IMG/VR virus record: IMGVR_UViG_3300041964_000086
Location: 1-51,732 of that record
DNA length: 51,732 bases
Reading direction: 5' to 3' (one strand)
Source of the DNA: a virus
Position 1 is the first letter of the stretch; each line of letters starts with the position of its first letter. Of this stretch, positions 19,184 through 50,290 are shown piece after piece. A program made the position numbers and the translations under genes. Below the pieces are notes generated by a model. That model made no database searches. It saw only the letters and a list, made by a program, of their open reading frames with translations, and had not been told where the DNA came from.

Positions 19184-19771
19184 TTAGGAGTTGGAAAGTT
19201 GCTTCGTCGCCAGGCGCATCGCCTCATCCCAGGAGGCGGCCTTTTTGCTGGTCCAGAGGGTGCGGGCGAGGCGCGCGATCTCATCCTCGCTCGGGCCGGA
19301 CGGCGCCGCGTCGCCAGCCGGATCGTGCATTGGCGTGGGCGCTTCCTCGGGAGGTGCGGCCGGCGCGGGGATGGCCATGCCGTTGAGGATGTCGATGCCG
19401 CTCTCGCGGTCGCTCAGGAGGATGCCGCGGATCCGCGTCTTCGCCTTTTCATCGGTGAGCCGATCGGCGAATTGCTCGAGGATCGCATCGACCTCGGCTT
19501 CGCGTTGCTGGCGGTGCAGCTCCTCCTGCTTTTGGTGGAGCGCATCATACTCGGCGCGGATCTTGTCGAGCTCCGCCTGGATCGATTCCACCGTGCCAGC
19601 CGATGTGGTGACATTCCCGAGCAGCTCGGTGATGCGCGCTTCGACCGCGGCTTCATCGGCCGTCTCCTCGAGCCCGAGCAGGGCGAGCAGCCGGGCGAGG
19701 AAAGTAGGTGCGGGCGCAGCTTCTTCCGCCGGCGCGTTTTCGGTCGTAGGGGTATCAGTCGGGTCCGCCAT
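19184..19771 (-). CDS. Capsid scaffold protein (gpI C-terminal-like)
   Basis: 195 residues from ATG 19771. Coiled-coil centre (AELDKIRAEYDALHQKQEEL) followed by VDAILEQFADRLTDEKAK and a Pro-rich stretch. This pattern is that of the scaffold part of Mu-type protease-scaffold proteins. No protease motif is visible, so it seems scaffold only. It acts inside the prohead. It starts right after one of the three conserved intergenic elements, which suggests separate control of the head block. The frame could extend to 19813, but that part covers the conserved element, so 19771 is preferred. Confidence 0.65.
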   Translation of the reverse strand: MADPTDTPTTENAPAEEAAPAPTFLARLLALLGLEETADEAAVEARITELLGNVTTSAGTVESIQAELDKIRAEYDALHQKQEELHRQQREAEVDAILEQFADRLTDEKAKTRIRGILLSDRESGIDILNGMAIPAPAAPPEEAPTPMHDPAGDAAPSGPSEDEIARLARTLWTSKKAASWDEAMRLATKQLSNS

Positions 19772-19781
19772 GAATTGACGG

Positions 19782-19848
19782 CAAGCCTGATGCAACGCCG
19801 CTGCAGCCGCCATGCACCGCCCCGATTTGCGGCATGTGCGGACGGGAA
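19782..19848 (-). promoter_or_regulatory. Conserved intergenic element, copy 1 (upstream of scaffold gene)
   Basis: A 40-bp core at 19809-19848 (plus-strand reading GCCATGCACCGCCCCGAT, one variable base, TGCGGCATGTGCGGAC, GGGAA) begins directly after the stop of the gpG-like gene. Exactly 19 bases further along the coding strand comes the box CAGGCTTG (19782-19789), 10 bases before the ATG. The same layout occurs at 30138-30203 and 33635-33700. The core has an imperfect dyad (CATGCCGC against GCGG-TG-CATG). Interpretation as a phage promoter or start-associated element is inference. Confidence 0.75.
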
Positions 19849-21869: not shown

Positions 21870-22889
21870 TCAGAGCGAACGTCGAACATCCAACATCGAA
21901 CATCCAACATCGAAGGCAGAGGGGCGCTTCGTTCTCGAGATCCGCTCCTCGATGAGCGGCTCGTACCCCGGATTTAACTCGATGAGGATTGCTTTGCGGC
22001 CAAGCGAGAGAGCTACGGCGCCAGTGGTGCCGCTACCGCCGAAAGGATCGAGCACCACGTCGCCAGCTCGTGAGCCGGCTAGGATACAAGGTGTGATGAG
22101 CGCGGGGGGGTAAGTAGCAAAGTGAGCGGCTGCATAAGGGACCGTCGGCACTGTCCACACGCTGCGCTTGTTGCGCGTTTCAGTGACCGCACGGAAGGCT
22201 TCGCGTCCAGGGAGGGCGTTCGTCTTCCCAGCAAAGCCGCCCCGCGCAATGCTCTCGCGGACTTTCTTAGATCGGCGGTCTTGGCCGGGTCCATTCGAGC
22301 GCCCTGGGGTCGAGTGGTGCCACCCTCCCGCCGGTTCTTTGATTGCGTCCGCGTCGTAATAGTAGCGGGCGGACTTACTCAGCAGGAACAGGTATTCGTG
22401 CGCCGTGGTCGGACGATCAGTCACGCTCTCGGGCATCACGTTCGGTTTGTGCCAGATGATGTCGCGGCGCAGAAACCAGCCATCCGTCCGCAACGCAAAC
22501 GCCACCTCCCACGGGATGCCAATCAAGTCTTTCGGCTTCAGCCCGGTGTATCGCTTGTTCCTTCCGATGGGGGAATCGTGAAGGGCCTTCGCATGTTTTC
22601 CGCCCGTGTGTCCGCCCCACTTACCATCGTTCGCGTAGCTGTCCCCGAGGTTGAGCCAGAGAGTGCCGTCATCTTTGAGCACCCGGCGCACTTCGCGAAA
22701 CACTGAGACGATCTGCTCGATGTATTCGGCGGGCGAAGGCTCAAGCCCGATCTGCCCATCGACTCCATAGTCGCGCAGCCCAAAGTATGGCGGGGAGGTG
22801 ACGCAGCACTGCACGCTTTGAGCCGACATCTCGCGCAGCATCGTGCGGCAGTCTCCAACGAGCACCTGCAAACTGTCCTGGCTAGTCAT
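21870..22889 (-). CDS. Site-specific DNA methyltransferase (beta class)
   Basis: 339 residues, ATG 22889 overlapping the stop of the upstream Zn-ribbon gene. Catalytic motif IV is TSPPYFGLRDYG near residue 31, with NLGDSYA following. The AdoMet motif I is near the C-terminus (VVLDPFGGSGTTGAVALSLG). Motif order IV then I makes it a beta-class N4-cytosine or N6-adenine enzyme. Phage-borne orphan methyltransferases like this often protect phage DNA from restriction; there is no restriction gene beside it. The last 20 residues (RPSAFDVGCSMLDVRRSL) are encoded by a dispersed repeat and are probably an acquired tail. Confidence 0.9.
   Translation of the reverse strand: MTSQDSLQVLVGDCRTMLREMSAQSVQCCVTSPPYFGLRDYGVDGQIGLEPSPAEYIEQIVSVFREVRRVLKDDGTLWLNLGDSYANDGKWGGHTGGKHAKALHDSPIGRNKRYTGLKPKDLIGIPWEVAFALRTDGWFLRRDIIWHKPNVMPESVTDRPTTAHEYLFLLSKSARYYYDADAIKEPAGGWHHSTPGRSNGPGQDRRSKKVRESIARGGFAGKTNALPGREAFRAVTETRNKRSVWTVPTVPYAAAHFATYPPALITPCILAGSRAGDVVLDPFGGSGTTGAVALSLGRKAILIELNPGYEPLIEERISRTKRPSAFDVGCSMLDVRRSL
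21876..21915 (-). repeat. Dispersed repeat at the methyltransferase 3' end
   Basis: Tandem units CGAACATCCAACAT and CGAACGTC, related to the TTCG repeats at 16.9 and 21.0 kb. Supplies the C-terminal codons of the methyltransferase. Confidence 0.8.
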
Positions 22890-25305: not shown

Positions 25306-25311
25306 TGGTTT

Positions 25312-25441
25312 ACCACGAAGGGCACTAAGGGCACGAAGGGGGGAGGATTTGAGGATCCGAGAAAGTCACCGGCACGACGCGGGCGGCGAATGGCGACGGA
25401 AAACCGTTCCGAACCTTTGTGCTCTTCGTGCCCTTCGTGGT
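25312..25441. repeat. Dispersed inverted repeat element A (ACCACGAAGG type)
   Basis: Left arm 25312-25341 (ACCACGAAGGGCACTAAG...), right arm 25416-25441 reading TTTGTGCTCTTCGTGCCC then TTCGTGGT. The arms are inverted copies around a 74-base centre. The element fills the gap between portal and terminase genes. Two further copies lie at 27.1 and 27.9 kb. Repeats of this kind are common in Verrucomicrobia and Planctomycetes intergenic DNA (general knowledge). Confidence 0.85.
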
Positions 25442-25452
25442 GAGATCTCTTT

Positions 25453-26990
25453 TCATCCCACGCACCCCCTGCGTTGCCGGGTCATCTTCTCCCGCGCGCT
25501 GCGCACCACGCCGGCGGTCTGCTCGGCGATGCGCACCGCGAGCTCGTGAAAGCGGCGGAACGTCCCGACCTCGGCTTGCGAGTAGCCGGCGCGCACCGCG
25601 AGCGCGAGCGCCCAGAAGCGATCGGCATGGCCGCGCACGCCGTCGCGGCTGGCGGCGATGCTCACCCGGCCGCCGGGGCTGACGATCTTCTCGGGCTTGC
25701 GCAGGTCGTCGCGCAGCTCCGGATCCTGAAAGATCTCGAGCGTCTTATCCTCGAAGCAGCCGCGCAGATCGGTGGCCATGATCTCCGTCACCTTCGCGGT
25801 GAGCGTCTTGCGGCCTTCGGTGGCGATGCGGGCGGTGATCGGCTCGGTGCTGGCGAAGTGCACGCCACCGATGAGCTCGTCGCTAAACTCATCGACGAGA
25901 TAGTCGTAGGCGCCGGTGCCGTTGCCGGTCATGTCGATCTCCAGCCGGCGAAAGCGGGGCATGGTGCAGACGACGCGCGCCTGCGCATTCTGCTGCGGGG
26001 TGCGCAGATCTTCCATGATGAGCTCGGCGATCATGCGGCGGGTCTCGCCGATGCGCTCGAGCACGGTGATGACCGAAAGATCGCGGTTGCGGGCGAAATC
26101 CCATCCGCATTCGAGCACGCCCTCGGCGCGGTAAAGCCGCTGGATCGTATCGATGCTCCACTCCTGCCGATCGGGCTGCAGCAGCTCCACCCGCATCGCG
26201 GCGTCGATGAGCTCCTGCGTGAGGAGCGGCATGTTTTCATCCTCAAAGGTGCACTCGTAGTTTTGGTCGTAAGCGCGCTTGTCGCTCGCCTCGGCGCGGG
26301 CCTGCTCGGGCGTGATCGGTTGCCCGGTGACGGCGCTGTAGATCTTGATCGCGCCCATGGCATACGCATCCGAGCGGCGCACGCGGTAGTACGGCATCCG
26401 CCCTTCGCTGATGAGCTGGAAGAACATGTTCTGCCGGCCGTTGCCGGTGCTGGCGATGCGGCAGAGGAAATCGGGATTGCTCGAGATGATCGGCTCGGCC
26501 GCATTCCCAGATCGCGCGGCTGTCTTCGTGGAAAGCGAACTCGTCGAGGATGAGATCGCCGGAGAAACCGCGCGCGGTGCGGGGATTGGCGGCGAGCACC
26601 TTGATGCGGCCGGTCTTGCCGCCGATGGTGATGCGGATCTCGAACCGCATATTGTCGAACTTCAGATCTTCGCTGAGATCTCCGCCTCGATGACGACGCC
26701 CATCTTGTGGCAAACGTCCTGGCCTTGAGCACGAACTCGCTGCCGTTGTCGCGCGAGTTGCTCAGCACCGTGACGACCGCCGGGGTATTGCAGGAGCCGA
26801 TCGACGGCCAGGCGGCGAGGGTGTAGCTCTTCCCGATCTGCCGCGACCAATGGATGATCTGCGTCTTGGTGACGTGATCGTAAAAGACCGGCACCTGGTA
26901 GGTGCGCATCGGCACCAGCGGCGGCGGGGCGTTCACCTCGCCCGTGGCGAGGATGCCGAGGCGAAGATCCGCGAACATCGAGGCGTGCAT
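25453..26990 (-). CDS. Large terminase subunit (Mu gp28-like; frameshifted)
   Basis: About 512 residues rebuilt from three frames. N-terminal ATPase: a Walker A-like RQIGKSYT after IIHW, then the Walker B-like LILDEFAFHEDS. Breaks occur near 26.70 and 26.50 kb; the last 324 residues from 26427 are intact. The nuclease domain begins GWDFARNRDLSVITVLE, with acidic catalytic candidates, followed by EIDMTGNGTGAYDYLV. It cuts and pumps DNA into the prohead. Start taken at ATG 26990 (MHASMFADLRLG); 26978 is an alternative. The breaks are probably sequencing errors, as protein quality continues across them. Confidence 0.8.
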
Positions 26991-27062
26991 GTGTCGACGC
27001 CGCAGGTGATCAGCCACGCCCAGATGAGCTTGAGGGTGATCACGCTTGCACCTCTCGGATTT

Positions 27063-27347
27063 TACCACGGAGGGCACGGAGAGCACGAGGAGGAGAGGGA
27101 CTGCTTCTCGATGCAGTCGTGCTCGCGAAGTGGTTCGTTTAGCCCCATCTCGCGCTTGCCGATCGGTGCATCGAGCAGATCAGGCACTTGCCGGAAAGTG
27201 ACGCTTGAAATCAGCGACCATCCTCTCGCGGAGAAAGCGCGATCGCGCCAGTAGCACTCGTAAGGGTTGCGGTCTTGCGCAGCACAAAGCGACGGATTGC
27301 GTCTTTGATTTTTCTCCACCCTCCGTGCTCTCCGTGTTCTCCGTGGT
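27063..27347. repeat. Dispersed inverted repeat element B
   Basis: Arms ACCACGGAGGGCACGGAGAG (27063 on) and CTCCGTGCTCTCCGTG...CCGTGGT (27320-27347) enclose 225 bases. The enclosed minus-strand frame (27062-27319) is likely incidental. Same family as elements A and C with G for A substitutions. Lies between terminase large and small genes. Confidence 0.8.
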
Positions 27348-27350
27348 GAA

Positions 27351-27931: not shown

Positions 27932-27940
27932 CTGAATCAA

Positions 27941-28139
27941 ACCACGAAGGGCACGAAGAGCACGAAGGGGGAAGGGAAATGCCGGATGATCCAAAACCCT
28001 CTCTTTTGACGGGTCCGGCTGACTCCGTGCTGCATGTCCGCCTCAATGCAGCGAGGCTGGCTTTGCTTGCGCAGTGAGCCACTCGGGTAGCGTCCAAAGT
28101 GTTTCCGAGCCCGTTGTGCTCTTTGTGCCCTTCGTGGTG
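27941..28139. repeat. Dispersed inverted repeat element C
   Basis: Left arm ACCACGAAGGGCACGAAGAG (27941 on), right arm TTGTGCTCTTTGTGCCCTTC (28114 on) then GTGGT. Encloses about 140 bases without a gene. Third copy of the ACCACGAAGG family within 3 kb. Confidence 0.85.
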
Positions 28140-28154
28140 AAACATCGGGTGAGT

Positions 28155-29033: not shown

Positions 29034-29601
29034 TCTCGGTGAGCAGGTAGGGGATCGTCTTCTGCCCGTGCCGCTTCAGCTCCTGCTGCACGAGCGCGAT
29101 GAAGGCCGGCCATTGATCCGGATGAATGGTCTGGCACCCGAGCGAGCTGGTGCCGGTGCGCCCGCCGCGATGGATGTTGATGCCGAAGTAGCCGGTGTCC
29201 AGGACCGGCTTGCCGCCGCGCGTGGCCGAGTCGCGCGCCACGGTGACGGGCGCCGCCTGCACGAGCGCGGTGTACTGCTGCGCCTTTGGCTTGCTGAGCC
29301 CATGGATCCCGAGCTTGTAGCTCCAGGCGCCGGGAATGAGGCTGGCGATGCCTGGCCGGTGCGCGCTGGGATCGGTGTTCGCATTGAAGGTCACATGAGC
29401 CGTGCCCGTCGCGTAAAGGATGATGGCGTCGTCGTAGATCCCGCGATCGTTCTTCGCCGGATCGCCCATGCTGCGGAGGTAGTAGCCGCGCCGGCCAAGG
29501 AGGAAGACATTCCCCTGCAGGCCGCTCTCGGCGATGATGCGGGCGGTCTCTTCGCGCGTCTGCTGTGGGCGCGCCGGTGGGAGGATTGTTTTGCTACTCA
29601 T
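29026..29601 (-). CDS. Phage endolysin-like, YkuD-type catalytic motif
   Basis: 191 residues, intact. The C-terminal half has GINIHRGG (His144) followed by TSSLGCQTI (Cys156), matching the His...Ser-x-Gly-Cys signature of L,D-transpeptidase/YkuD-fold enzymes, which act on peptidoglycan. No signal peptide. It sits downstream of a holin-like gene and a small membrane protein and upstream of a membrane-anchored coiled coil: a lysis cassette. The ATG overlaps the stop of the small membrane gene. Confidence 0.7.
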   Translation of the reverse strand: MSSKTILPPARPQQTREETARIIAESGLQGNVFLLGRRGYYLRSMGDPAKNDRGIYDDAIILYATGTAHVTFNANTDPSAHRPGIASLIPGAWSYKLGIHGLSKPKAQQYTALVQAAPVTVARDSATRGGKPVLDTGYFGINIHRGGRTGTSSLGCQTIHPDQWPAFIALVQQELKRHGQKTIPYLLTENV

Positions 29602-29743
29602 GGCCGTGGCACGCGGAATCCCCGCAGCGATAGCGCCGGTTTAGCTGCTCTTTGCGCGCATCGCAGGCGGCCACGATGAACGGCCAGAGCAGGAACGCCG
29701 CGAAGAGGCAGACGCCGAGGAGGAATAATGCAGCGATCAGCAT
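29594..29743 (-). CDS. Small single-span membrane protein in the lysis cassette
   Basis: 49 residues: MLIAALFLLGVCLFAAFLLW then PFIVAACDARKEQLNRRYRC, ending HGHE. One N-terminal membrane segment and a charged tail with three Cys. Starts 6 bases after the probable end of the holin-like gene and overlaps the endolysin start. A holin, antiholin or spanin part is likely. Confidence 0.65.
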   Translation of the reverse strand: MLIAALFLLGVCLFAAFLLWPFIVAACDARKEQLNRRYRCGDSACHGHE

Positions 29744-29749
29744 GGCCGA

Positions 29750-30131
29750 TTACTTGGCGAGGCCGCTGCGGCTCGGGAGCGGGAAGAGGTAATTTGCGCT
29801 GACGGCGGTTTTTTCCGTCGCTCCAGCTCACCGTCGCGCCGCCGCCAGCGCAGCCCGCGAGCACCAGCAGGAGCAGGAGCAGCAGGAGCAAGCGCGCCGC
29901 CGCAGTCGGCAGCTCGATCCGCTTCGTGGCGGTGATGCGGCCCCAGACGACGAGGAAGAGGCCGACGAGAGTAAAGATCCCGTCGAGGACGCTCAGCAGC
30001 TGGGTGAGCGCGGCGACGAGATGGGGATCATCCGCCGCGAGCTCGATGCCCCACCAGCGGGCGGCCGTGACGATGAAAAGAAGCAGCGCCCCGAGCAGGG
30101 TCTTGCTGGCAAAAAGGCTCTTGGAAGGCAT
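29750..30131 (-). CDS. Holin-like membrane protein with internal lipobox (one frameshift)
   Basis: About 126 residues. Two hydrophobic segments (LLGALLLFIVTAARWW and FTLVGLFLVVWGRI) are followed by a basic stretch and a third segment of nine Leu ending LVLAGC, a lipobox. The native frame then appears to shift at an A6 run near 29.81 kb to give TAVSANYLFPLPSRSGLAK and a stop at 29750, neatly before the next gene. In the unshifted frame it runs on 150 bases over the next gene, less plausible. It may be a holin and a small lipoprotein joined. Preceded by conserved element copy 2. Confidence 0.6.
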
Positions 30132-30137
30132 AACGCC

Positions 30138-30203
30138 CAGCCTGCGGCAAGCGTCGTGCAGCTGCCATGCACCGCCCCGATCTGCGGCATGTGCGGACGG
30201 GAA
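30138..30203 (-). promoter_or_regulatory. Conserved intergenic element, copy 2 (upstream of lysis block)
   Basis: Core 30164-30203, identical to copy 1 but for the variable base and a C/T. The box CAGGCT at 30139-30144 is 19 bases from the core, as in the others, and about 7 bases before the ATG. It follows the stop of the tail accessory gene by 6 bases. Confidence 0.75.
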
Positions 30204-32484: not shown

Positions 32485-33276
32485 TTACGGAAAGGTGAGG
32501 GTGAAGCCGGGGAATGGGCTGTTGACGGGGGTTACCGTGACGTTTGCCCCGGTGGAAAAGGTGAAGCTCTGCGCGTCGGATGAGATCAGGACGAGGACGT
32601 TTCCGACTGCGGCCATTGCGTCGTTGCGTGCGAGCTGCGCGTCTGCAGCTGAGCCGCTCGCTGCGGTCGCACTGGTAGCGGCTGCGTTCTGGCTGGTTGC
32701 GGCAGCGTTGGCGCTCGCGCCTGCAGCGTTCGCGCTGGTGTTGGCAGCGTTCTGGCTGTTGAGCGCCGCGGTTGCGCTTGCGCCTGCGGCGGTGGCGCTC
32801 GTGTTCGCGGCGTTCTGGCTGTTCAGTGCGGCGGTTGCGGAGCCGCTCGCCGAAGTTGCGCTCGCTGCGGCGGCCGTCTGGCTGGTTGCTGCTGCTGTTG
32901 CGGAGCCGGTCGCGGAAGTTGCGCTCGTGGCGGCGGCGGCCTGGCTGGCTGCGGCGGCGGTCGCTGAGCCGCTCGCGGCCGTGGCGTTCGCTGCGGCGGC
33001 GGCCTGGCTATTGAGGGCGGCCGTGGCGCTGCCGGCCGCCCCGCTCGCGCTGGTTGCTGCTGCGCTTGCGGCGGCTTCGGCGCCTTGCCGGGCTAGGATG
33101 GCGGCGGCAGCGCTTGCCGCGGCTGGGTTATCCGCATCGAGCCACTCTTCGAGAGTGAGCGGCGGTTGATCCGTCGTGCTCTCGAGGTAGAGCTGGTAAG
33201 AGGTCTTTCCCGGCGAGCCTTGCGGGCCGATGTCGGTGATCTCAACGGAAGCGATGCTCTGCTCAGGATGCGGCAT
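32485..33276 (-). CDS. Tail fibre protein with tandem 21-residue repeats
   Basis: 263 residues. N-terminal 60 include YQLYLESTTDQPPLTLEEWL, the usual attachment-type domain. Residues 83-208 are six tandem 21-residue repeats of the form SATAALNSQNAANTSATAAGA, each three heptads long, suggesting a rod. A beta C-terminus follows. It shares its Ala/Ser-rich motif with the N-terminus of the next gene, so the two probably assemble into one fibre. Confidence 0.75.
   Translation of the reverse strand: MPHPEQSIASVEITDIGPQGSPGKTSYQLYLESTTDQPPLTLEEWLDADNPAAASAAAAILARQGAEAAASAAATSASGAAGSATAALNSQAAAAANATAASGSATAAAASQAAAATSATSATGSATAAATSQTAAAASATSASGSATAALNSQNAANTSATAAGASATAALNSQNAANTSANAAGASANAAATSQNAAATSATAASGSAADAQLARNDAMAAVGNVLVLISSDAQSFTFSTGANVTVTPVNSPFPGFTLTFP
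32653..33030 (-). repeat. Six tandem 63-bp repeats in tail fibre gene
   Basis: Six in-frame units of 63 bp, each encoding 21 residues beginning SATA or SANA. Repeats four and five are nearly identical, pointing to recent duplication. Confidence 0.8.
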
Positions 33277-33625
33277 AAGGCGGCTGGGTGCTCGGGATCT
33301 GCACGTTCACGAAGCCGGCCACCAAGGGGCCGATCCGCTCGCCGTCGGGATTCTCGAGGAGGAGATCCCACGCGCCCTCCTCGAGCCGCGGGTAGGCAGA
33401 GGTCTGCTCATCGGTGCGGTAGATGGTGACGACGCCCGCAGGCGCATCGGTGATCTGCGGAGCGAGATCGAAGAGCAGCGGGCCGAGCGGTCTCTTGCGC
33501 GCGTGCGCCCACACTTTCCAGCCGATGAGATCGACCGGATTGCCTGCATCATCCTTGAAGGCAAAGCGCTTCGGCCCAAAGGTGGCACCACGCCGGATCG
33601 TGATGTCGTGGATGGCTGGCTTCAT
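33263..33625 (-). CDS. Tail-associated beta protein
   Basis: 120 residues starting MKPAIHDITIRRGATFGPKR. Beta-rich with FAFKDDAGNPVDLIGWKVWA and APAGVVTIYRTDEQ, resembling small tail or fibre-base proteins with a Ig-like fold that open IHDxTIRRGxTF. First gene after conserved element copy 3, so it heads the late block. The 3' end overlaps the fibre gene by 14 bases. Confidence 0.6.
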   Translation of the reverse strand: MKPAIHDITIRRGATFGPKRFAFKDDAGNPVDLIGWKVWAHARKRPLGPLLFDLAPQITDAPAGVVTIYRTDEQTSAYPRLEEGAWDLLLENPDGERIGPLVAGFVNVQIPSTQPPYAAS

Positions 33626-33634
33626 TCAATCTCC

Positions 33635-33700
33635 AAGCCTGCCGCAGCCGGTGCAGAGCCGCCATGCACCGCCCCGATGTGCGGCATGTGCGGACGCGTT
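33635..33700 (-). promoter_or_regulatory. Conserved intergenic element, copy 3 (start of late block)
   Basis: Core 33661-33700 (variable base G; end GGACGCGTT differs slightly), 19-base spacer, box CAGGCTTG at 33634-33641, then 9 bases to ATG 33625. It lies between the winged-helix gene that ends the early operon and the first tail gene, where Mu-like phages have a middle or late promoter. Confidence 0.75.
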
Positions 33701-33716: not shown

Positions 33717-34028
33717 TCAGAGCAGCGTGAGCTGTGCAACGCGATTGCACGGCTCCTGCCAGACGATTGCGCGGTAGGTTTTCACCTCGACGCCGCAGCC
33801 GCCCATCTTCAGCGGCGCATCCTCGATCGTGCCGGCGGCGCGCAGCTCGGCGATGCGCCCGCAGATGCTCGACTCCTTGCGCCCCAGCTTCCGCGCGAGA
33901 TCCTCGATCGAGGGGCCGATGTGCGGGTGCGGCCAGGTGCGGATCGCTTCCCACACCTCGCGCTGCAGCCCGCGCAGATCCTCCTGGATCGCCCGGTAAC
34001 CGATGCGGCTGGTGTAGGCGATCGGCAT
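33717..34028 (-). CDS. Winged-helix-like protein, candidate late regulator
   Basis: 103 residues from ATG 34028, overlapping the GemA stop (TGATG). Sequence GLQREVWEAIRTWPHPHIGP then SIEDLARKLGRKESSICGRI is a clear helix-turn-helix, followed by a wing (AELRAAGTIEDAPLKMGG). It is the last gene of the early operon and lies after GemA, where Mu has its middle regulator Mor, though it is not Mor-like in sequence. Regulating the late block through the adjacent conserved elements is a hypothesis. Confidence 0.65.
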   Translation of the reverse strand: MPIAYTSRIGYRAIQEDLRGLQREVWEAIRTWPHPHIGPSIEDLARKLGRKESSICGRIAELRAAGTIEDAPLKMGGCGVEVKTYRAIVWQEPCNRVAQLTLL

Positions 34029-34567
34029 CAGAAGGGATCTTCGGACTGGTGAATGAGGAAAGCAGGAACAGAGGAAACGGAATGGGCAGCAGTGTCCGAA
34101 TCCTCTTCTTTTCCTGCTTTCTTGCTTTCCTGATTCATCCTCCGCCGTTGCTGCTCGAGCGCGATGATCACCTTGCGCAGATCGCCCGCCGCGAGCTGCT
34201 CCAGATCGGCGCTGCCGAGCCGGCCTTCCTGATTCATCCGCCGCGCGATGCCGCTGGCGTACTCGACGCCGCGCCCGAGCTCCGCACAGAGCTGGCGCAC
34301 CTTCCACATCCCGCGCCGGGCGGGCTGCGCCTGCGCCCCGAGCTGCGCCTCGAGATCGGCTGGCCGCGTGAGCGCGCGAAACTCCGCGAGCACGCGATCG
34401 AGCTCGTCATTCGTGAAATCCTTGCTCGAACGCTGATAGCCGAGCGCCTGCTGATGCAGCTCATGCCGGCGCGCATCGCACTCCTTTGCCTCGACGCCCT
34501 GGCGCCGCAGCATCATCCGCACGCCGTTCCATTCGCGAAAGTAGAGCTTGGTCTGCGCAGGGCTCAT
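34028..34567 (-). CDS. GemA-like phage regulator (gp16 family)
   Basis: 179 residues from ATG 34567. The opening QTKLYFREWNGVRMMLRRQG and KDFTNDELDRVLAEFRALTR are typical of the GemA/gp16 family of Mu-like phages (DUF1018), early proteins that affect host DNA topology and expression. The C-terminal 30 or so residues (SKKAGKEEDSDTAAHSVSS, then PAFLIHQ) come from an inserted repeat and are probably dispensable. Confidence 0.8.
   Translation of the reverse strand: MSPAQTKLYFREWNGVRMMLRRQGVEAKECDARRHELHQQALGYQRSSKDFTNDELDRVLAEFRALTRPADLEAQLGAQAQPARRGMWKVRQLCAELGRGVEYASGIARRMNQEGRLGSADLEQLAAGDLRKVIIALEQQRRRMNQESKKAGKEEDSDTAAHSVSSVPAFLIHQSEDPF
34048..34139. repeat. Inverted repeat element inside the GemA 3' end
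   Basis: Arms near 34048-34080 (GAATGAGGAAAGCAGGAAC) and 34104-34139 (TTCCTGCTTTCTTGCTTTCC, TGATTCAT) are inverted. A related GGCAGGAAGGCAGGAAC stretch lies near 35.65 kb at the end of the small zinc protein gene. The element ends up coding the GemA tail. Confidence 0.7.
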
Positions 34568-34896
34568 GGGGTGCGAGCCTCCAGCCGGGCCACCGCGGCG
34601 GCGCAATCGAGATCGATGGCCGCGGGCCGGGTCCGCTCGATCGCCTGGCGCACGGCTTTCAGGAAAGCCTGCTGGCGCTGCCCCTCACGGCTGGCCGCGA
34701 TGCTCAGCAGCTCCGGGGTGGAGCAATCGCCGACTGCCGGCGTGTGGTAGCGCAGCTGGCGGAAGATCTCGGTGAGCTCGGCCTCGAGCGCGGGCGTCCA
34801 AAACACTTCCGTTCCTGCGTTGCTCGCGCCCTCCCGGCGCGATCCTTCGGGCTCCCGGCTGTCTCGCTCCGCTCGGCTCCGCCCTTCGTGATTCAT
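34564..34896 (-). CDS. Early phage protein, unknown function
   Basis: 110 residues; ATG overlaps the upstream stop (ATGA) and its own stop overlaps GemA. The first 30 residues are Arg/Glu-rich, probably repeat-derived. The rest is helical: TPALEAELTEIFRQLRYHTP and REGQRQQAFLKAVRQAIERT. No family recognised. Confidence 0.55.
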   Translation of the reverse strand: MNHEGRSRAERDSREPEGSRREGASNAGTEVFWTPALEAELTEIFRQLRYHTPAVGDCSTPELLSIAASREGQRQQAFLKAVRQAIERTRPAAIDLDCAAAVARLEARTP

Positions 34897-35174
34897 GCGA
34901 GAGCCTTTCGTGGTTGAGCCGGGCGGGTGAGCCAGGCGTGCAGCTCGGGCGTGCAGCGCAGCTTCAGCAGCCGCCCGGTGGCGTCGCTGCAGAGCCGCGG
35001 GAAGGCCGGGCAGGCGGGATGATGCAGCCGCGCATGAAAGCGCCGGAGCGGCACGCCGAGCCGGGCCTGCAGCTGCACCGGCCTCTCGTAGGGCGGCAGC
35101 CCATCGGGCGGCGCGGTGATCGAGTAGCCGAGCCCGCGCAGGTGATCGATCGCCTCATTGGTGGTGATCGCCAT
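34893..35174 (-). CDS. Small early phage protein with HTH-like start
   Basis: 93 residues opening MAITTNEAIDHLRGLGYSIT, which resembles a short DNA-binding or excisionase-like helix pair, then QLQARLGVPLRRFHARLHHP. The stop overlaps the next ATG. Function unknown; order suggests an early accessory. Confidence 0.55.
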   Translation of the reverse strand: MAITTNEAIDHLRGLGYSITAPPDGLPPYERPVQLQARLGVPLRRFHARLHHPACPAFPRLCSDATGRLLKLRCTPELHAWLTRPAQPRKALA

Positions 35175-35630
35175 TTAGCTGCTCCTCCCCATTTTACGCC
35201 GGAACTCTTCGGCCTGCCGCCGCACCTCCGCGGCGATCTCGGCCGGATCGCGCGCGGGCGGTGCAGGCGCGAGCACCGTGGTGCGGCTCCCATCGGGCAG
35301 CGCGCGCGTCTGCGGCACATCGGGCTGCTTCACCGCGCCGCGCCGGCGCAGTCGCTCCTGGCGGATCTTGATCGCCCGCTCTTCGAATTTGTCCACGTCG
35401 CCGATGGCATTGCGGAAATCGAGCGAGGCATCGGTGTAGCCCTTCGTGCCGCTGGCGATGAGCCGCTTCAACTTGCCGAGCACGAGGCGCACATCCTCGG
35501 GCGTGAAGCCGCGATCGTGGAGCTCGGTGAGCACCCGCGCCCGCTCGTAGCTGAGCGTGATCGGCAGCCCGGCCACCTCGATGTAGGCATCGAGGAGGGC
35601 TTTGAGATGCGGCGGCGGCTCGAGCTTCAT
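35175..35630 (-). CDS. Early phage protein, replication accessory-like
   Basis: 151 residues from ATG 35630. Helical sequence with YERARVLTELHDRGFTPEDV and RLIASGTKGYTDASLDFRNA (a pattern common in phage accessory proteins that end near a DnaC-like or HNH context). C-terminal part Arg/Glu-rich. Begins 8 bases after the previous stop. Function not known. Confidence 0.55.
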   Translation of the reverse strand: MKLEPPPHLKALLDAYIEVAGLPITLSYERARVLTELHDRGFTPEDVRLVLGKLKRLIASGTKGYTDASLDFRNAIGDVDKFEERAIKIRQERLRRRGAVKQPDVPQTRALPDGSRTTVLAPAPPARDPAEIAAEVRRQAEEFRRKMGRSS

Positions 35631-35638
35631 TTGATGAA

Positions 35639-35857
35639 TTAAGAAGGCAGGAAGGCAGGAACGGAGGAGGGCAGCGGGCCCGGCGGGTTCGCTGCGCGGT
35701 GCTGCGCCTCTGCGGCGGTGCGGGATTTCGGCGAACTGCTGCGGCACTCCAGGCGCGAGCACTCCAGCCAATGCCACGCGGGCGGGATGCCTTTATCCGG
35801 GTTGGCATCGCTCGCCGGTTCCATCGGCGCGCTGCAGTAGAGGCACCGCGAGTTCAT
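35639..35857 (-). CDS. Small zinc-ribbon-like early protein
   Basis: 72 residues, start overlapping the DUF5131 stop. Cys5, Cys8, Cys33 and Cys38 (CLYC and LECSRLEC) could bind a metal. The C-terminal PLPSSVPAFLPS is encoded by a repeat. Confidence 0.6.
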   Translation of the reverse strand: MNSRCLYCSAPMEPASDANPDKGIPPAWHWLECSRLECRSSSPKSRTAAEAQHRAANPPGPLPSSVPAFLPS

Positions 35858-38883: not shown

Positions 38884-39011
38884 GAGAGCACCGCCTTTCC
38901 ATCCCCGCTCATCTGCTTGCGCAGGGCGATTGCTTTGCGCACGTGGTTCTCGTCCAACGCCTGGCTGGCCTTCGTGGCCATGCGGCTCGCCACTTTTAGC
39001 GTCTCGGTCAT
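38880..39011 (-). CDS. 43-residue early peptide
   Basis: MTETLKVASRMATKASQALD, charged and helical, overlapping the transposition ATPase stop (ATGA). Unknown role. Confidence 0.55.
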   Translation of the reverse strand: MTETLKVASRMATKASQALDENHVRKAIALRKQMSGDGKAVLS

Positions 39012-39991
39012 GATCCCAGGCGGCCGGGTTGATTTGCGATCTCCTCCAGCTGGCTCATGAGATCCGCGCCGGCATCGTCGAGGAACTGCTGCACGATCGG
39101 GCGGATGTCCTTTTGCGTGATGCGCGTCTTCACCCGGATCGGCATGCCGATGCGGCCGAGCAGCTGCTCGTACTGGTAAGCGCCCTTCTCGAGCCGGAGC
39201 GGGAGCCGCTTCGTGGAGATGAGCGCCAGCGCGCACTTGGTCATGTCGTGCACGTCGCGCAGGAACTCGAGCGTGGCGGGATTCGCCGTGCGGGCATCGC
39301 TCGGCAGGCAGCGGTGCGCCTCGTCGACGATGAGGATCCGGTTGGGATTGAAGGCCCGGTAGATCGCCTCGACCATGCTGGCCATGTCCTGGGATTTATT
39401 CACCCCCACGGCGGTCGCGACGCGGCGCACAAGCGCCTTGGTGCCGCCGATCGGCGGGGCGGTGATGAGGACCGAGCGGCCGTGATTGTTTGCCTGCTGC
39501 CAGGCGGTGGCCGCGATGGTCTTGCCGCTGCGGCTCTCGCCCTCGATCAGCGTGATCGAATTGTTCGCCATGGCGTAGTCGAGCCCGGCCCAGATGAGCG
39601 CCGAGATGCTATTCGGCGTGAACTCGTTTTGCTGGATGCTCCCGCGCTGCTCCTGCAGTTTGCGGTAGCTGCGGATCGCCTCGACAATCTTCTGCCAGTT
39701 GCCTTCGTAGGTGCCTTTGAGCACGCGGAAGACGGTCGATTTATCGTAGTTCAGCGCGCTCTCGCATTCCTTCCAGCCGAGCTTCGCGTCGAGCACGTGC
39801 TGGTGAAACCAGAGCAGCTCGCCAGAGGTCTCCTCGGGAAGTCCTTTCCAATTTTCGAGGTTGAGCGGTATATTGATGCGGCTATGGGCACTGCTCGCTT
39901 CGGCGCTGAGTGTCTTGCTCTCGACCGGCGCCAGCGTAAGAGGCTGTGCGCCGGTCTTTTTCGTTTCGGGTGGTGATGATGTCGTTACCAT
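39008..39991 (-). CDS. Transposition target/ATPase protein (MuB / TniB-like AAA+)
   Basis: 327 residues from ATG 39991, overlapping the transposase stop by 7 bases. Walker A GESRSGKT (151-158), Walker B ILIVDEAH (219-226), a sensor-like ALISTKRLPL. The N-terminal 140 residues include a helical DNA-binding-like segment (GWKECESALNYDKSTVFRVL). AAA+ partners of this type deliver target DNA to the DDE transposase and give target immunity in Mu. Confidence 0.9.
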   Translation of the reverse strand: MVTTSSPPETKKTGAQPLTLAPVESKTLSAEASSAHSRINIPLNLENWKGLPEETSGELLWFHQHVLDAKLGWKECESALNYDKSTVFRVLKGTYEGNWQKIVEAIRSYRKLQEQRGSIQQNEFTPNSISALIWAGLDYAMANNSITLIEGESRSGKTIAATAWQQANNHGRSVLITAPPIGGTKALVRRVATAVGVNKSQDMASMVEAIYRAFNPNRILIVDEAHRCLPSDARTANPATLEFLRDVHDMTKCALALISTKRLPLRLEKGAYQYEQLLGRIGMPIRVKTRITQKDIRPIVQQFLDDAGADLMSQLEEIANQPGRLGS

Positions 39992-42186
39992 GCGGTGGGG
40001 TCTCCTTCTTCTGCGGTTTGCTGCGGGTCCGAGGCGAAAAGCGTGCTGATCTCCTCGGGTGAAAATGAGTCGTCGTCTGCGGCAGCCGGCCGGCTGAGCG
40101 CGGCGGCGCGATCGGCGGCGCTGATGGTGCGGGCATCCTCGCGATGCTCCTGCTGGCGGCGGGTGGCGGTGCGCTGCTGATCGGCGATGGCGCGGTGCCC
40201 CTCGGGTGCCTCCGCATCGGTGACGAGCGGATTCACCGGGGCGACATTCAGCGCGCCGGCACGGGCGAAGACTTCGAGGTTTTGCTCGATGCGCGCTTCG
40301 TTCTCCTCGGCCACCTGGGGCGCGTTGCGGTTGAGCCGGGCGAGCGCGGCATTCAGCATCCGCTTCTTGGTGGCAATGGCGTCGCTCGCGCCGGTGAGGT
40401 CGCGCCGCGAGATGCCGCGGGTGTGCTGCAGCGTCCCGACCCACCGGCCATCGCCGGTCGTCACATAGAGGCGCTCGGGTGGGATCTGGCCGCCGCTCGC
40501 GTCGTAGTAGGCGAGATACTCGCGCCCGGCTTCCATCGCCTCGAGCGTCGGCTGATTCGCCGCGGTGTAGGGCGAGTATAGGCAGACTTTTTTCTGCAGC
40601 TCGAAGCTCACCTGCCCCTTCTCCAGCGAGATCCAGCGCTGATCCTCGAGCAGCCGGGGCACGCTATCATCATGCAGCCGGAAGAAGCGCGTGCCGGCCT
40701 CGCGCTCGGCGCTCATGAGCCGCTCCATGCGCTCGAGCGGGCGCTCCAGCCGGGGCCGGGTGAGCACGCGATCGCGCACGGCCTCGGGATACTCGAGCAG
40801 CTCATGCAGCGGGCGCCATTCGTCGCCCTCGCGGAAGCGCCACTCGATGAGCTCCTCGAAATCCTGCAGGGCGTGATCGTCGCGCAGGTTCAGCGCGTGG
40901 ATCGCCTCGGCGAGCAGCGGGCGCACTTCATCGAGCCCGCGATATGGGAGGCGCAGCTCGGCTTTCAGGTGCGAGGGCAGATGCCGGCCGGCCTTGACGA
41001 GCGCGGCGAGCTCCTGCCGGCGGCCATGATCATCCTGCGGCGAGACATCGTAGCGGCGGCCCGTCTGCCCCTCGATCGCCGCGAGGCGATTGTGCAGCGG
41101 ATTGAACCAGCTCTCGAGCCAGCTCTTCGCCCGGCTATTGCCGACGGCGCGATCGGCAAAGCCGCCTGCCCAGGCCGTGCCGCGCAGCAGCGAGGCGGGG
41201 TGAAACTGCACCAGCCCGCCGGTGGCCTCGGCGATGGCCGCGATGAAGGCGCTGTCGAACGTGGCGGTGCCGAGCTCGTAGATGATGTGCATGCCGTATT
41301 CCGGCCAGCCCCACGCCTGCAGCAGGTGCACGATGACGGCCTTCACGTCGCGGCGCTTGATGTGATCCTTGGCCCCGCTCTCCTGCATGAGCGCGGGCCG
41401 GACGCCGAAGCCGAGCCCGAGCGCGCAGCCGATGTCGAAGACCGGCAGCGCGATCACGTCGACGGGCTTGCCGAGATCCTCGACGTGCACGCGGAAATCG
41501 AGCTTCACGTCGTCGAGCGTGATCCACTCCAGCGGGCGCATATCGGCGCGGGTGCCGGGGATGCTGGGGAGCTCGCTGAGCGCCGCGGCGATGCCGCGCC
41601 GGGCGGCGGCGGTCTCGACTTTGTCGAGCTTGCGGATGAGGTTCTCGTAGGTCCAGCCGGTGGGGAGATCGGGCGGGCAGCTGCGCGGCACGGGGCGATC
41701 GGGCCAGCGGCCGGCAAACCAGTGGCGCCAGGTGCCGTAGCCGGGCACCTCGCCGCCCTGCCGCCAGTGCCGCTCGAGGAAATCGGCCCAGCCTTGCTTG
41801 CTGCTGCGCTTGTTCCGCTGCATCCAGCCGTGAATGAACTGCACGGCCTCCTCGGGCATGCCGCGCTCGGCGACGGTGGCGGGGAGCAGGGCGGAGATGC
41901 GGCGCCCGCCGCGCAGCCATTTGTAATAGTCGTTGTAGAGCCGGCTGGCGCTGAATCCGCGCGCTTGCAAGCGGTCTGCATGCTCGGTGCAGCGCTGCAT
42001 GACGATGCGGGTATTGCGGGTGCGCTCGACCTCGCGCCAGATGCTGCGGAAGATCTGCTCCTTCAGCTCGGCGCGGTCCCGCTCCTTGTGCGTGGCCTTG
42101 GCCAGCGCGAGGCGGTCTTTATCCATCCGCAGGCTGAGGGCAGCCCCGGCGGGCACGATGGCAGCGGTGTCGGCGAGGGCGATCAT
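39985..42186 (-). CDS. Phage DDE-type transposase (MuA-like), second Asp replaced by Glu
   Basis: 733 residues from ATG 42186, with ribosome site GAGGAAACGC upstream. Catalytic core: first acidic residue in EWITLDDVKLD (Asp225/226), second position in IIYELGTATFD (Glu304 where Asp is usual), third in RAKSWLESWFNPLHNRL (Glu358). Spacing of 54 between second and third compares with 56 in MuA. The flanking GTA and LHNRL patterns are typical of phage transposases. A C-terminal Mu beta-barrel-like part and an acidic tail follow. It carries out integration and replicative transposition. Confidence 0.85.
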   Translation of the reverse strand: MIALADTAAIVPAGAALSLRMDKDRLALAKATHKERDRAELKEQIFRSIWREVERTRNTRIVMQRCTEHADRLQARGFSASRLYNDYYKWLRGGRRISALLPATVAERGMPEEAVQFIHGWMQRNKRSSKQGWADFLERHWRQGGEVPGYGTWRHWFAGRWPDRPVPRSCPPDLPTGWTYENLIRKLDKVETAAARRGIAAALSELPSIPGTRADMRPLEWITLDDVKLDFRVHVEDLGKPVDVIALPVFDIGCALGLGFGVRPALMQESGAKDHIKRRDVKAVIVHLLQAWGWPEYGMHIIYELGTATFDSAFIAAIAEATGGLVQFHPASLLRGTAWAGGFADRAVGNSRAKSWLESWFNPLHNRLAAIEGQTGRRYDVSPQDDHGRRQELAALVKAGRHLPSHLKAELRLPYRGLDEVRPLLAEAIHALNLRDDHALQDFEELIEWRFREGDEWRPLHELLEYPEAVRDRVLTRPRLERPLERMERLMSAEREAGTRFFRLHDDSVPRLLEDQRWISLEKGQVSFELQKKVCLYSPYTAANQPTLEAMEAGREYLAYYDASGGQIPPERLYVTTGDGRWVGTLQHTRGISRRDLTGASDAIATKKRMLNAALARLNRNAPQVAEENEARIEQNLEVFARAGALNVAPVNPLVTDAEAPEGHRAIADQQRTATRRQQEHREDARTISAADRAAALSRPAAADDDSFSPEEISTLFASDPQQTAEEGDPTAW

Positions 42187-42590
42187 GCGGGCGTTTCCTC
42201 GGCAGAGACTGCGATCACCTTTTCCTTGCCGACCATGCCGACGAGCTCGGCCATCGGGTCGAGTGAGAGCCATGCATCAGCGTGGCAGGCGATCTCGTAG
42301 TCTGCGGGAAGTGGCAGCGTTGCGAGCCACGCTCGCACGCCGTCCATCGGTGTTTCGGCCGCTTTGATGGCCGCATCGAGTTTTGCTAGCTCTTCAGCCG
42401 TGCCTGCGGCCGCCAGCTGGGGATGCTGATCTAGGATCAGCGGAGCGGCGAAGCGGCAAGCCCGCGGCAGAACGTGCGTGAAAAGATTGTCTCCGGTGAC
42501 GTGGTTCAGAATCTCATACACGCCGCCCATGTCGCAGCAGAGCCGGCCTGTGGTGATGCTCAGGACGTGAGCGAGAGGGAAGGTTTTCAA
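42183..42590 (-). CDS. Conserved-type phage early protein (DUF7736-like)
   Basis: 135 residues, ATG overlapping nothing upstream by more than 4 bases; its stop overlaps the transposase ATG. The opening KTFPLAHVLSITTGRLCCDM, then GGVYEILNHVTGDNLFTHVL, is a pattern found in many phage early proteins. Function unknown. Family call is from pattern memory, not from a search. Confidence 0.6.
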   Translation of the reverse strand: MKTFPLAHVLSITTGRLCCDMGGVYEILNHVTGDNLFTHVLPRACRFAAPLILDQHPQLAAAGTAEELAKLDAAIKAAETPMDGVRAWLATLPLPADYEIACHADAWLSLDPMAELVGMVGKEKVIAVSAEETPA

Positions 42591-43363
42591 ACCTGGCCTC
42601 CCTTCAGCTGCTCAGTAAGAGCCGCGGTGATGCCGATGAGCCGCTGCCGGATGGCCTCGGCCTCGCGGCGGTTCCAGGTGGTCTGCGTGGCGATGGCCTC
42701 GACGAGCGGCACGGTGGCGTCGATGATCTCGAGGCGCTTTTCGTTCGGCAGCCGCACCCAGGTGGCCGTCTCCTGCCCCTCGAGGATGAGCCGCGAGCGG
42801 AAGCGATCCCACAGCTCGAAGAGCTCCATCTGCTCCTGGCGCAGCAGCTCCTCGGGCGTGGCCGTGGAATCGGTGTGCTGCTGGTGCGCGTCCTTTTCCC
42901 GCAGGATCCCGCAGTCGCGGTAGATCGTCGTGAGTGAGCGCCCCGCGATCCAGGCGTCGGCGGCGTCGCGGAGGCTATCGATAGGCGATCCGATCGAGCC
43001 CGTCTGCAGCCAGTCGGATCCGGCTGGCTTCTGCGGGGTCACTGCTATGAAGGTCGCCGCCACGCGCATGTAGCGGCAGAGCCGCGTCTTCAGCGCCTCG
43101 GGATCGGCGCTCAAAAGTGTCACAGTGACACTTTTGCCGATCTGCTCACGCCATGCTTCGAAGCCGCCATGGGGCACTACCTCTTTTGCCACCTGCCCGA
43201 TCAGTCCGGCGCGGAGGGCGGCGAACGCATGGGCGCGCTTGCTTTCGATGGCGACGATGACGGCATGTCCAGCCATCGCGCTGAGGATGGTGGGGCCGCT
43301 TTCGTCGCGGCTGTAGACAGAGACGAAGGTGGAGAGGTCCAGGGATTTGGATTTTTTGGGCAT
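42587..43363 (-). CDS. Early phage protein (DUF3102-like pattern), unknown function
   Basis: 258 residues. N-terminal part has IESKRAHAFAALRAGLIGQV and EAWREQIGKSVTVTLLSADP, then KTRLCRYMRVAATF, resembling the helix pattern of DUF3102 regulators. The C-terminal half is helical (ELLRQEQMELFELWDRFRSR). A perfect 25-bp palindrome lies inside the gene (43112-43136). Stop overlaps the next ATG. Confidence 0.55.
   Translation of the reverse strand: MPKKSKSLDLSTFVSVYSRDESGPTILSAMAGHAVIVAIESKRAHAFAALRAGLIGQVAKEVVPHGGFEAWREQIGKSVTVTLLSADPEALKTRLCRYMRVAATFIAVTPQKPAGSDWLQTGSIGSPIDSLRDAADAWIAGRSLTTIYRDCGILREKDAHQQHTDSTATPEELLRQEQMELFELWDRFRSRLILEGQETATWVRLPNEKRLEIIDATVPLVEAIATQTTWNRREAEAIRQRLIGITAALTEQLKGGQV
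43112..43136. repeat. Perfect 25-bp palindrome inside an early gene
   Basis: CAAAAGTGTCAC, one A, GTGACACTTTTG: 12-base arms with no mismatch, within the coding sequence for IGKSVTVTLLSA. Could be a protein-binding site or a hairpin. Confidence 0.85.
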
Positions 43364-43367
43364 AAAG

Positions 43368-43718
43368 TTACCGGGAAGAGCCGGAGAGGAGCCGCTCGAT
43401 CAGCACCTTGCGCTGAGCGGGTGTGAGCGTGCGGGCGAGCTTGACGATGACCTCGATGAAGTCGTCGGGGAGGTACTCTGCGGTGCGGGCGAAGTAGGCG
43501 AGGACGCTGCGGCGAGTCACCCGAAGATGCTTCCTTTCCCCGCCAAGTCCCCGATGGGCCTCCAGCGTGCCGTCAGCGATCAGGTCGTAAACGTAGGAGC
43601 GCTCGTAGTGGAGCACCTCCGCAACCTTCTTCGGATGCACAAGAAGCTGACGCTCCGGGATCGTCATGAGGAAATCGAAGCCGAGCTGATCGGGCGTTCT
43701 CGTGTCGCGCGGGATCAT
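43368..43718 (-). CDS. Excisionase-type helix-turn-helix protein
   Basis: 116 residues. Residues about 26-62 (LVHPKKVAEVLHYERSYVYD then LIADGTLEAHRG) form the MerR/excisionase-like helix-turn-helix, with a wing reading LRVTRRSVLAYFAR. C-terminal helices with TLTPAQRKVLIERLLSG. Early regulator or transposition accessory. Confidence 0.7.
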   Translation of the reverse strand: MIPRDTRTPDQLGFDFLMTIPERQLLVHPKKVAEVLHYERSYVYDLIADGTLEAHRGLGGERKHLRVTRRSVLAYFARTAEYLPDDFIEVIVKLARTLTPAQRKVLIERLLSGSSR

Positions 43719-44199: not shown

Positions 44200-45083
44200 A
44201 TTTAGCAAATTTGGGGCAGCGAGTGAGAACGGGGCGAAAGCATCTGAAGATGTCTCAGAAGGATGTGGCGGCGGCGCTCGGCTACAGCCGGAATTACATC
44301 TGGATGGTGGAGAGCGAGACGAAGGATCCCGGCCCCGGATTTCGGGAGGCGTGGGAGCAGTTTGAACGCGATCGCGGTCTCACTTTGAGTGAGCAACCGG
44401 CAGTGAGCGGCCCGCGCGGTTTGCTCAAAGAAACGCTCGCTGCTCACCAGATGACGGCTGCCGAGTTAGCAAAGCGGATCGGCTACGAGATCGGCCCCGT
44501 GCAGGCGGTGGTCGACGGCGGGGCGCGGATCAGCGAGTCGATGGCCGAGGCGATCGAGCGCGAGCTGCCGGAGCTGGAGAAGGAAGCGCTGCTGGGCGGG
44601 TCCGACACCCCGCGGATCACCACCGATAGCGGCACTTACGGCACGATGGGCGCGAAGCCGCAGATCGCGGTGCCGAAAGGGATGGACGTGCGCATGGTCC
44701 CGCTGATCTCATGGGCGCAGGCGGGGGCGATGAGCAGCTACGACGACGAGGTCTATAGTCACGAGGCGATTCCGGTCTTCGATGTGCCGGACCGCAAAGC
44801 CTTTGCCCTGACGGTGCGCGGAAATTCGATGACGCCGGAGATCAATGAAGGCGACAAGGTGATCGTGTGCCCGAGCTGGCAGCCGCGGAATGGCGATGAG
44901 GTCATCTGCCGCACCGTGGACGGCGATGTGATGTGCAAGATCTACCACTCGAAAGAGGGCGGGAAGATCGTGATCCTCTCGAGCTACAACAGCGGCGCGC
45001 ACCCGCCGTTCGAGCTCAACCGCGACGAGATCGCCTGGATTTACCCCGTGCAGGGCGTGCAGAAGACGCGCCGCAGTTCCTGA
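44193..45083 (+). CDS. LexA-like phage repressor with two HTH domains
   Basis: 296 residues with a GTG start at 44193. HTH 1 (residues 8-60) includes RTGRKHLKMSQKDVAAALGY. A second HTH-like region (75-125) has LAAHQMTAAELAKRIGYEIG. The C-terminal S24 peptidase domain has the Ala-Gly cleavage site WAQAG (177-178), Ser212 in GNSMTPEINEGD and Lys249 in VMCKIYHS. So it should self-cleave on SOS/RecA activation and release the lysogenic state. Transcribed opposite to the early operon. Confidence 0.9.
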   Translation: MSNLANLGQRVRTGRKHLKMSQKDVAAALGYSRNYIWMVESETKDPGPGFREAWEQFERDRGLTLSEQPAVSGPRGLLKETLAAHQMTAAELAKRIGYEIGPVQAVVDGGARISESMAEAIERELPELEKEALLGGSDTPRITTDSGTYGTMGAKPQIAVPKGMDVRMVPLISWAQAGAMSSYDDEVYSHEAIPVFDVPDRKAFALTVRGNSMTPEINEGDKVIVCPSWQPRNGDEVICRTVDGDVMCKIYHSKEGGKIVILSSYNSGAHPPFELNRDEIAWIYPVQGVQKTRRSS

Positions 45084-48900: not shown

Positions 48901-50290
48901 CGATCACCCCTGCGGCGTCACTGCTCCCATTGTAAGTCGTAAGGCTTTCCCCACCGCCGAGTGTCGGGGCGGTATACACGCCTGGAACGATGCCTGCGAC
49001 GGCGGAAGGAGCAGTTCCAAACCGCAAGGCGCGTGAACGAGGTTCCGCTCGCACCGCCGAGCGCATCGGCGCGCACCAGCATTTCTGCCGTTGAGCGAAT
49101 GAACGTCCCTGCTTGCAGCGTCAGCGATCCGGTCCCCTGCGCGACCAGCCCGATATTGCTGCTGAGACCGCTCGAACTGACCGCTAGGGAGCCGATATTC
49201 ACGTTCGTGGCGGTTGTCGAGTCACCGATCACTCGCAATCCTCCTCCGGTTAGAGTTAGCGCCAGGCTCGACTTGAGCCGCGGTCCGGTGCTCCCGGTCT
49301 CATCCAACTCGAGTTCCGCTCCGCTGTTCACCGATATTCGATCGCTTTGGATCGCAGCACCGCCACGAAGCAGCATGGTTCCGCCATCGACGGTCAGGTT
49401 TCCGGAAAATGGCACCGTTGTCGTCAATGCAAGTGTGCCCGCGCCGCTCTTGGTGAGGGCCGCCACGCCCGTGAGAGTCCCATTCCACGTCGCGTCGAAG
49501 CCGTTGGTGTCCACCTTTCGGCTCAGATCGATGTTGTTCGGGTTTCCGGCGCTGCCGGAGACTTGAATGCCCCGCGACGAGGTCCACGGGCCAAGGAGCC
49601 GCAACGTGCCAGCACCGATCGACACATTCCCCGAGCCGAAGGCTGCATCGTTGGCAAATTCCAGCGTCCCGCTCGTGAGCGTGGTGGATCCAGCATGGGA
49701 GTTCGCCGCGTTCAGGCGCACCGTGCCAAGACCACCACCGCCCACACGCAGGGGGCTCGCACCACTCAGGGCCGCATCGAGTGAAAGAATGCCGCCGGCG
49801 CTCGACGCAGTCGCCGTGACCAAATTGTCCGATGGGTTCAGAAGTAGCGGCGCGGTGATCGAAGCGGTCCCAGCATGCTCCTGCGTGATCATCGTGCCGC
49901 CTCCACTCAGCACGATGTTGCGTCCACCCGATGAGGCGAGCGTCAGCACGGTACCAGAAGTTTGACTGAAAGTCAGTCGATTGACCTGGAAGCCGTTGTT
50001 CAGGTCGTGGGTGGAGATGGTGCTCGCCCCCCGGCGGTGGCGAAGCGAAGAGCCAACGAAGAGCCACCTGCAGCGGCTGGAGCGGTGCCGTCCAGCCAAT
50101 TGCTTCCTAAAGACCAGTTGCCGCCCACGGCGCTGTTCCAGACTTCCTCCTGTCCCATCGCGCACGGCGCGCTCGGCCAACAGATCGCAAGCGCGCCAAG
50201 GAGGAGGTAAACCCTCGACGACTGTGTAAAACGTTCGAAATCCGGTCTGGGTCCGCAAGCCATCGCGGACTGACGCATGGCCCGGCTCAC
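45938..50290 (-). CDS. Large secreted protein with autotransporter-associated beta-strand repeats and PEP-CTERM (frameshifted)
   Basis: About 1450 residues over several frames. Start GTG 50290 (ATG 50278 is an alternative), long signal peptide with LLLGALAICWPSAPCAMG. The body is repeats of the type GAGTLALTTTVPFSGNLTVD and GTLRLLGPW. The end is PEP-CTERM: VPEPTSLTLAIAVLPLLAAR followed by basic RRRHRMRQAP. Breaks near 50.03, 49.02, 47.45, 47.35, 47.16, 46.99 and 46.8 kb. PEP-CTERM proteins are sorted and processed at the envelope by exosortase systems and are often surface or EPS-linked. Typical of Verrucomicrobia. Breaks resemble sequencing indels since repeats continue across them. Confidence 0.8.

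Follow-up and report, generated by a model that had tools for sequence, protein, structure and literature searches.

In phage Mu, C drives the lys, I, P and mom promoters (PMC4461284), and Mor acts on a 16-bp element containing two 5-bp inverted repeats (PMC4390567). The excerpt of the Leptospira study drawn on here takes Mor/C as a marker of transposable phages, describes the Leptospira transposable prophages as being without it, and leaves both this absence and the activation of their late genes unexplained (PMC8705779). With those prophages the phage described here shares transposable phage genes, GemA and the absence of Mor/C. The same excerpt names neither a replacement protein nor a late element (PMC8705779), whereas the window has candidates for both. 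A further point of comparison is BldC, which binds 9-bp sites head-to-tail (PMC5859096).

The Mor/C profile PF08765 matches Mu, B3, D3112, BalMu-1, SuMu and RcapMu above its cut-off. The activator gene of this family lies directly after GemA in Mu, B3, D3112 and BalMu-1 and close by in SuMu and RcapMu, which bears out the initial annotation in placing Mor near this position in Mu.

Phage layout and the protein encoded after GemA

The window (the whole stretch analysed, IMG/VR virus record IMGVR_UViG_3300041964_000086, 51,732 bases) carries a Mu-like transposable phage on its minus strand, from about 44.1 kb down to 8 kb. MuA, MuB, Gam, GemA and Mu-like head genes are all present; in the profile search Gam matched PF07352 and there was a Mu-like_Pro match. 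The gene order is ner-like, HTH_17, MuA, MuB, Gam, DUF5131, GemA and a gene for a 103-aa protein, followed by genes for tail fibre, lysis, packaging, head and tail. From 44.1 kb down, most of the early genes overlap or stand a few bases apart, and several early proteins are without a family match among the PHROG and Pfam profiles.

44250-45083, opposite direction to the phage operon: S24-type repressor
43368..43718, minus strand: HTH_17 (Xis/MerR-like) early protein (PF12728, E=4e-7; homologue in relative G007, 38%)
39985..42186, minus strand: MuA-like transposase, with homologues in relatives
39008..39991, minus strand: MuB-like transposition ATPase (phrog_296, E=8e-34), the query used to find relatives
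34028..34573, minus strand: GemA (Pfam GemA, E=6e-9), its stop overlapping the start of the 103-aa gene
33717..34028, minus strand: 103-aa winged-helix-like protein, candidate late activator, with an ATG start, closing the early operon

The GemA stop and the ATG of the 103-aa gene overlap as TGATG, suggesting coupled translation of the two. The next gene begins 92 nt beyond the 103-aa gene, and between them lies the first of the repeated elements described below (element 3), which starts 21 nt past the stop codon. The gene is the last of the overlapping early operon after GemA, as originally annotated. The same annotation described its product as a short winged helix without Mor-like sequence. 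The absence of Mor-like sequence holds, PF08765 giving no match in the window at E<=1, and the winged helix is probable on profile matches and a predicted model. The HTH_36 match (E=0.013) is weak and falls below the Pfam cut-off. Residues 5-74 match phrog_1123 (E=2.8e-9), a family without an assigned function, and there are further matches to phrog_3502 (E=5.5e-5) and, faintly, to the D5-like regulators phrog_323. The AlphaFold model, predicted from one sequence, is of poor quality (pLDDT 56) and shows three HTH-type helices. Most of its Foldseek neighbours are winged helices of the AsnC, IclR, GntR and Zalpha kinds, but none reaches significance (E at least 0.14). Among the Mu-like records tested phrog_1123 had no significant match and was marginal only in D3112 and B3, and no close homologue of the 103-aa protein was found in other phages (IMG/VR and annotated phages).

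Several other features of the window were recorded. The large terminase (25453-27086) is read in two frames, so that this copy is frameshifted or contains a sequence error. Copies of ACCACGAAGGGCACGAAGAGCACGAAGG occur in both orientations at 25306-25346, 25414-25446, 27061-27098, 27324-27350, 27936-27975 and 28110-28144, flanking the gaps of the terminase region inside the packaging operon; it resembles a dispersed intergenic repeat of the host type. Repeats of the TTCGACGTTCGGCGTTCGACGTTTGC type are found as direct and inverted copies at 16875-16914, 20957-20998 and 21875-21916, and the relative G005 carries a similar repeat, GAACATTCAACATTCAACGCTGAA. The stretch 3880-5045 has long runs of G and low-complexity, G-rich sequence, possibly a sequencing or assembly fault outside the phage. 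Beside the phage, at 46776-50321, are broken frames of a repeat-rich beta-strand (autotransporter-like) protein; the sequence suggests that this is host DNA and that the phage may be inserted into or near an autotransporter-like gene.

Three late elements and their repeat structure

The initial annotation had noted three similar elements downstream of the 103-aa gene, and these proved to be copies of a 36-nt sequence, GCCATGCACCGCCCCGATNTGCGGCATGTGCGGACG (as read on the plus strand), at 33661, 30164 and 19809. All are in a single orientation and only one base in 36 varies.

33661..33696, minus strand: element 3, preceding the tail-fibre module
33263..33625, minus strand: first gene past element 3 (phrog_1084; weak match to tail-fibre assembly phrog_3304)
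30164..30199, minus strand: element 2, preceding the holin-like membrane protein gene and the lysis/packaging operon, a Plys-like place
29598..30131, minus strand: first gene past element 2, small, with hydrophobic helices, putatively holin/spanin-like
19809..19844, minus strand: element 1, preceding the protease/scaffold I gene, a PI-like place
19184..19768, minus strand: first gene past element 1, C-terminal part of a Mu-like protease I/scaffold (PF10123, E=4.4e-4; phrog_328, E=2e-6)

There is an upstream ATG inside element 1, and the start of the I gene was therefore taken at 19768. Judged against a hand-curated gene list, all three elements are intergenic over 36 of 36 positions; each stands shortly past a stop codon, and the next start lies 36, 33 and 41 nt downstream (for 33661, 30164 and 19809, respectively). 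A random 36-mer is fully intergenic at 4.3% of positions and falls in the band 20-50 nt upstream of a start at 1.1%, giving a three-fold chance of about 1e-6. The 29-nt core has three exact matches in the window where shuffles predict none, and there is no fourth copy in the window at up to 3 mismatches, nor at up to 11 of 35.

The Mu C-dependent promoters serve lys and I, and the places of elements 2 and 1 thus agree with Mu. This position, at the Plys and PI places, makes a role in the late switch likely. No sigma-70-like promoter was found in 19.6-34.1 kb of the window, which fits a need for an activator. The window encodes no sigma-70 region 4; a search for a T7-type RNA polymerase gave no match, but neither did its control. 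The elements fold as RNA no better than shuffles, and Rfam and tRNA searches gave no match. We consider it probable that the three elements are control sites of late promoters.

The exact core has no match in any other phage in IMG/VR. A 20-nt part was found in GTDB genomes in four actinobacterial contigs only, taken as chance, and an 18-nt part in 11 IMG/VR contigs, none of which (0/11) encodes a window homologue. A short peptide, MPQIGAVHG, was also considered as the meaning of the element and dropped, as it has no ribosome site and conservation ends at the core.

On the coding strand the core includes TCCGCACAT followed by GCCGCANAT, a direct repeat with a 9-bp period (p=0.013 against shuffles). 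The same period is seen in the repeated element of the relative G001 (p=0.007) and in three of the four elements of G007 (p=0.0002-0.007). It had been noticed in the window and in G001 prior to testing there, so G007 is the fairer test. Arms of the form CATGC...GCATG with a spacing of 21 bp can be picked out in the window element on visual inspection but are not beyond chance. From sequence, a direct repeat appears better supported in this element than inverted repeats of the Mor/C type, in contrast with the Mor site of Mu. Direct repeats would fit head-to-tail binding, as by BldC on its 9-bp sites, although BldC needs AT-rich repeats and those of the window are GC-rich. Lambda CII is likewise a DNA-binding activator on direct repeats near the -35 region; its repeats are spaced 10 bp apart, as against the 9-bp period here. 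The likeness to CII, BldC-type and response-regulator activators would lie in direct-repeat binding near -35, with no sequence relationship to the window protein shown.

Elements and post-GemA proteins in related phages

Scans with MuB gave eleven related contigs, none of which has a PF08765 match. In 7/11 (G001, G002, G004, G006, G007, G008 and G010) one winged-helix family is encoded at or close behind the post-GemA position; GemA itself was not recognised by profile in G001, where the slot was assigned from gene order. The family is well predicted as a winged helix with a long C-terminal helix (pLDDT 82) and has no Pfam match and no convincing PHROG match. Its genes include:

L006 12844-13215: post-GemA winged helix (G001)
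L008 15841-16179: post-GemA winged helix
L012 15090-15464: post-GemA winged helix
L052 15126-15518: post-GemA winged helix
L053 15334-15669: post-GemA winged helix
L055 14683-15027: post-GemA winged helix

Homology of the 103-aa protein to this family was rejected (hhalign probability 0.2%). A winged helix near GemA ending the early operon is thus a common theme, and the window has a different one.

The nearest relative of the window is G007 (MuB 64%, terminase 57%), which has homologues of its ner, HTH_17 and GemA genes. G001 and G007 are more distant from each other in MuB (54%) and terminase (28%), but MuA also groups them together. The HTH_17 gene is conserved in G007, G004, G002 and G006 and weakly in G003 and G001.

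In G001, ATCGAACTGAGCGAACCGC occurs at three sites only: across the end of the winged-helix gene, ahead of a D12 methylase gene; before the packaging operon; and before I. The orientation of these copies tracks transcription, not the genome, and the copy past the winged helix overlaps a terminator. In G007, elements of the form GAGCGAA[T/C] stand 51-63 nt ahead of I, of the late operon and of two genes of the tail-fibre region; of the six GAGCGAA[T/C] copies in the contig, four fall within upstream gaps, which account for about 4% of its sequence, and there is no element past the winged-helix gene. GAGCGAA[T/C] is the core shared by both phages. The sequence of their elements is unlike that of the window element, but the kind of place is shared: I and the lysis/packaging operon have an element ahead of them in every case. 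In all three phages the sites are found where late operons begin, in most cases at 33-63 nt from a start codon. The other nine relatives have no comparable element set: G006 has one weak GAGCGAA tandem only, and G002, G004, G008 and G010 have the same post-GemA family but no clear repeated elements.

The D12-class adenine methylase of G001 (L006 13402-14166), behind the element downstream of the post-GemA winged helix, recalls by analogy mom, the late-controlled DNA modification gene of Mu. In G007 the protease I and the major head protein are fused in one 784-aa frame (L057 14204-16558). The G001 core was found in IMG/VR in G001 and in two contigs without related genes, save one short methylase match. 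A further candidate, TAACGGTG, was set aside as a late motif common to G002, G003 and G004, since its copy in G003 proved to be a terminator stem.

A candidate late switch and its alternatives

We infer that the elements are promoters, that the 103-aa protein reads them and that it activates. Early transcription would pass through GemA into the 103-aa gene; the protein would accumulate and, as a head-to-tail pair, bind the tandem 9-bp repeats that lie on the coding strand some 70 nt before the start codons, and once bound would recruit host RNA polymerase to three late operons (tail fibre, lysis/packaging and protease/head). Such a switch would share with Mu a candidate activator encoded last among the early genes after GemA, candidate activator-dependent promoters before lys and I, and the lack of a good -35. 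It would differ in that the protein is outside the Mor family and no separate middle C gene was found in the window. The suggestion in the initial annotation of a late regulator working unlike Mor/C is upheld as to the Mor slot, the absence of Mor and the Plys and PI places; the link between protein and element is one that we infer.

That link is favoured by comparison of the three phages. Between the window and G007 both the element and the post-GemA winged helix differ while other early regulators are shared, and G001 and G007 have the post-GemA family and the GAGCGAA core in common. This would be expected if the post-GemA protein is the reader, and the sequences of these three phages suggest that element and protein change together. 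The match may however be one of ancestry, as MuA groups G007 with G001. Also against the link are the relatives that encode this family but have no clear element set, and the lack of an element past the winged-helix gene in G007. For the reading as a whole, late-promoter control sites together with the 103-aa protein as their binding activator, we put the probability at roughly 0.42. Taken on its own, the proposal that this protein reads the elements is tentative, and the protein could instead serve replication or early autoregulation.

If the elements are late-promoter sites, another factor might read them. This could be a regulator or sigma factor of the host, or one of the early proteins that have no recognisable fold, such as those encoded at the following positions:

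34564-34896: early candidate without recognisable fold
34893-35174: early candidate without recognisable fold
35175-35660: early candidate without recognisable fold
42587-43363: early candidate without recognisable fold

Near identity over 36 nt exceeds the usual requirement of one small protein and may mean that the element is contacted by several, and the early proteins without a family match offer candidates. We nevertheless regard this as unlikely, because the differences in element sequence among related phages would not be easily accounted for by a host factor and none of the fold-less early candidates is in the Mor slot. The HTH_17 early protein is a real rival as reader, given that BldC, which has a related fold, binds direct repeats of 9 bp; the post-GemA protein would then have another job. 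The HTH_17 protein matches PF12728 (E=4e-7) and its gene is conserved more widely among relatives than the window's winged helix. However, this gene lies near the start of the early operon, so that its product would appear earlier than a late switch requires, the protein is conserved between the window and G007 (38%) although their elements differ, and no solved structure, BldC included, was matched by its sequence. These points make it improbable. Many phage winged helices sit in replication clusters. It is nonetheless very unlikely that the elements are RNA leader signals, or module-boundary sequences that duplication or recombination has spread, with the winged helix acting in replication or early shut-off: the near identity of the copies could reflect recent copying and one G001 copy overlaps a terminator, but the elements fold no better than shuffles, those of G001 follow the direction of transcription, and the sites of all three phages stand close before late operon starts.

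Finally, what is new here is that G001 and G007 have element sets of their own at comparable late starts and that the 9-bp repeat is present in all three phages. A broader reading, in our view somewhat unlikely, is that a lineage of transposable phages without Mor carries an exchangeable late-control cassette. This would pair a small winged helix in the Mor slot with matched operators, 9-bp tandem repeats at every late operon, and close relatives would have had both replaced jointly. The window offers a concrete candidate replacement for Mor/C, with one protein, three sites and relatives that have matched sets of their own. If this is true, transposable phages would control their late genes through an interchangeable module, and repeated intergenic elements ahead of I and of the lysis operon could serve to recognise late promoters in phages whose hosts are poorly studied.
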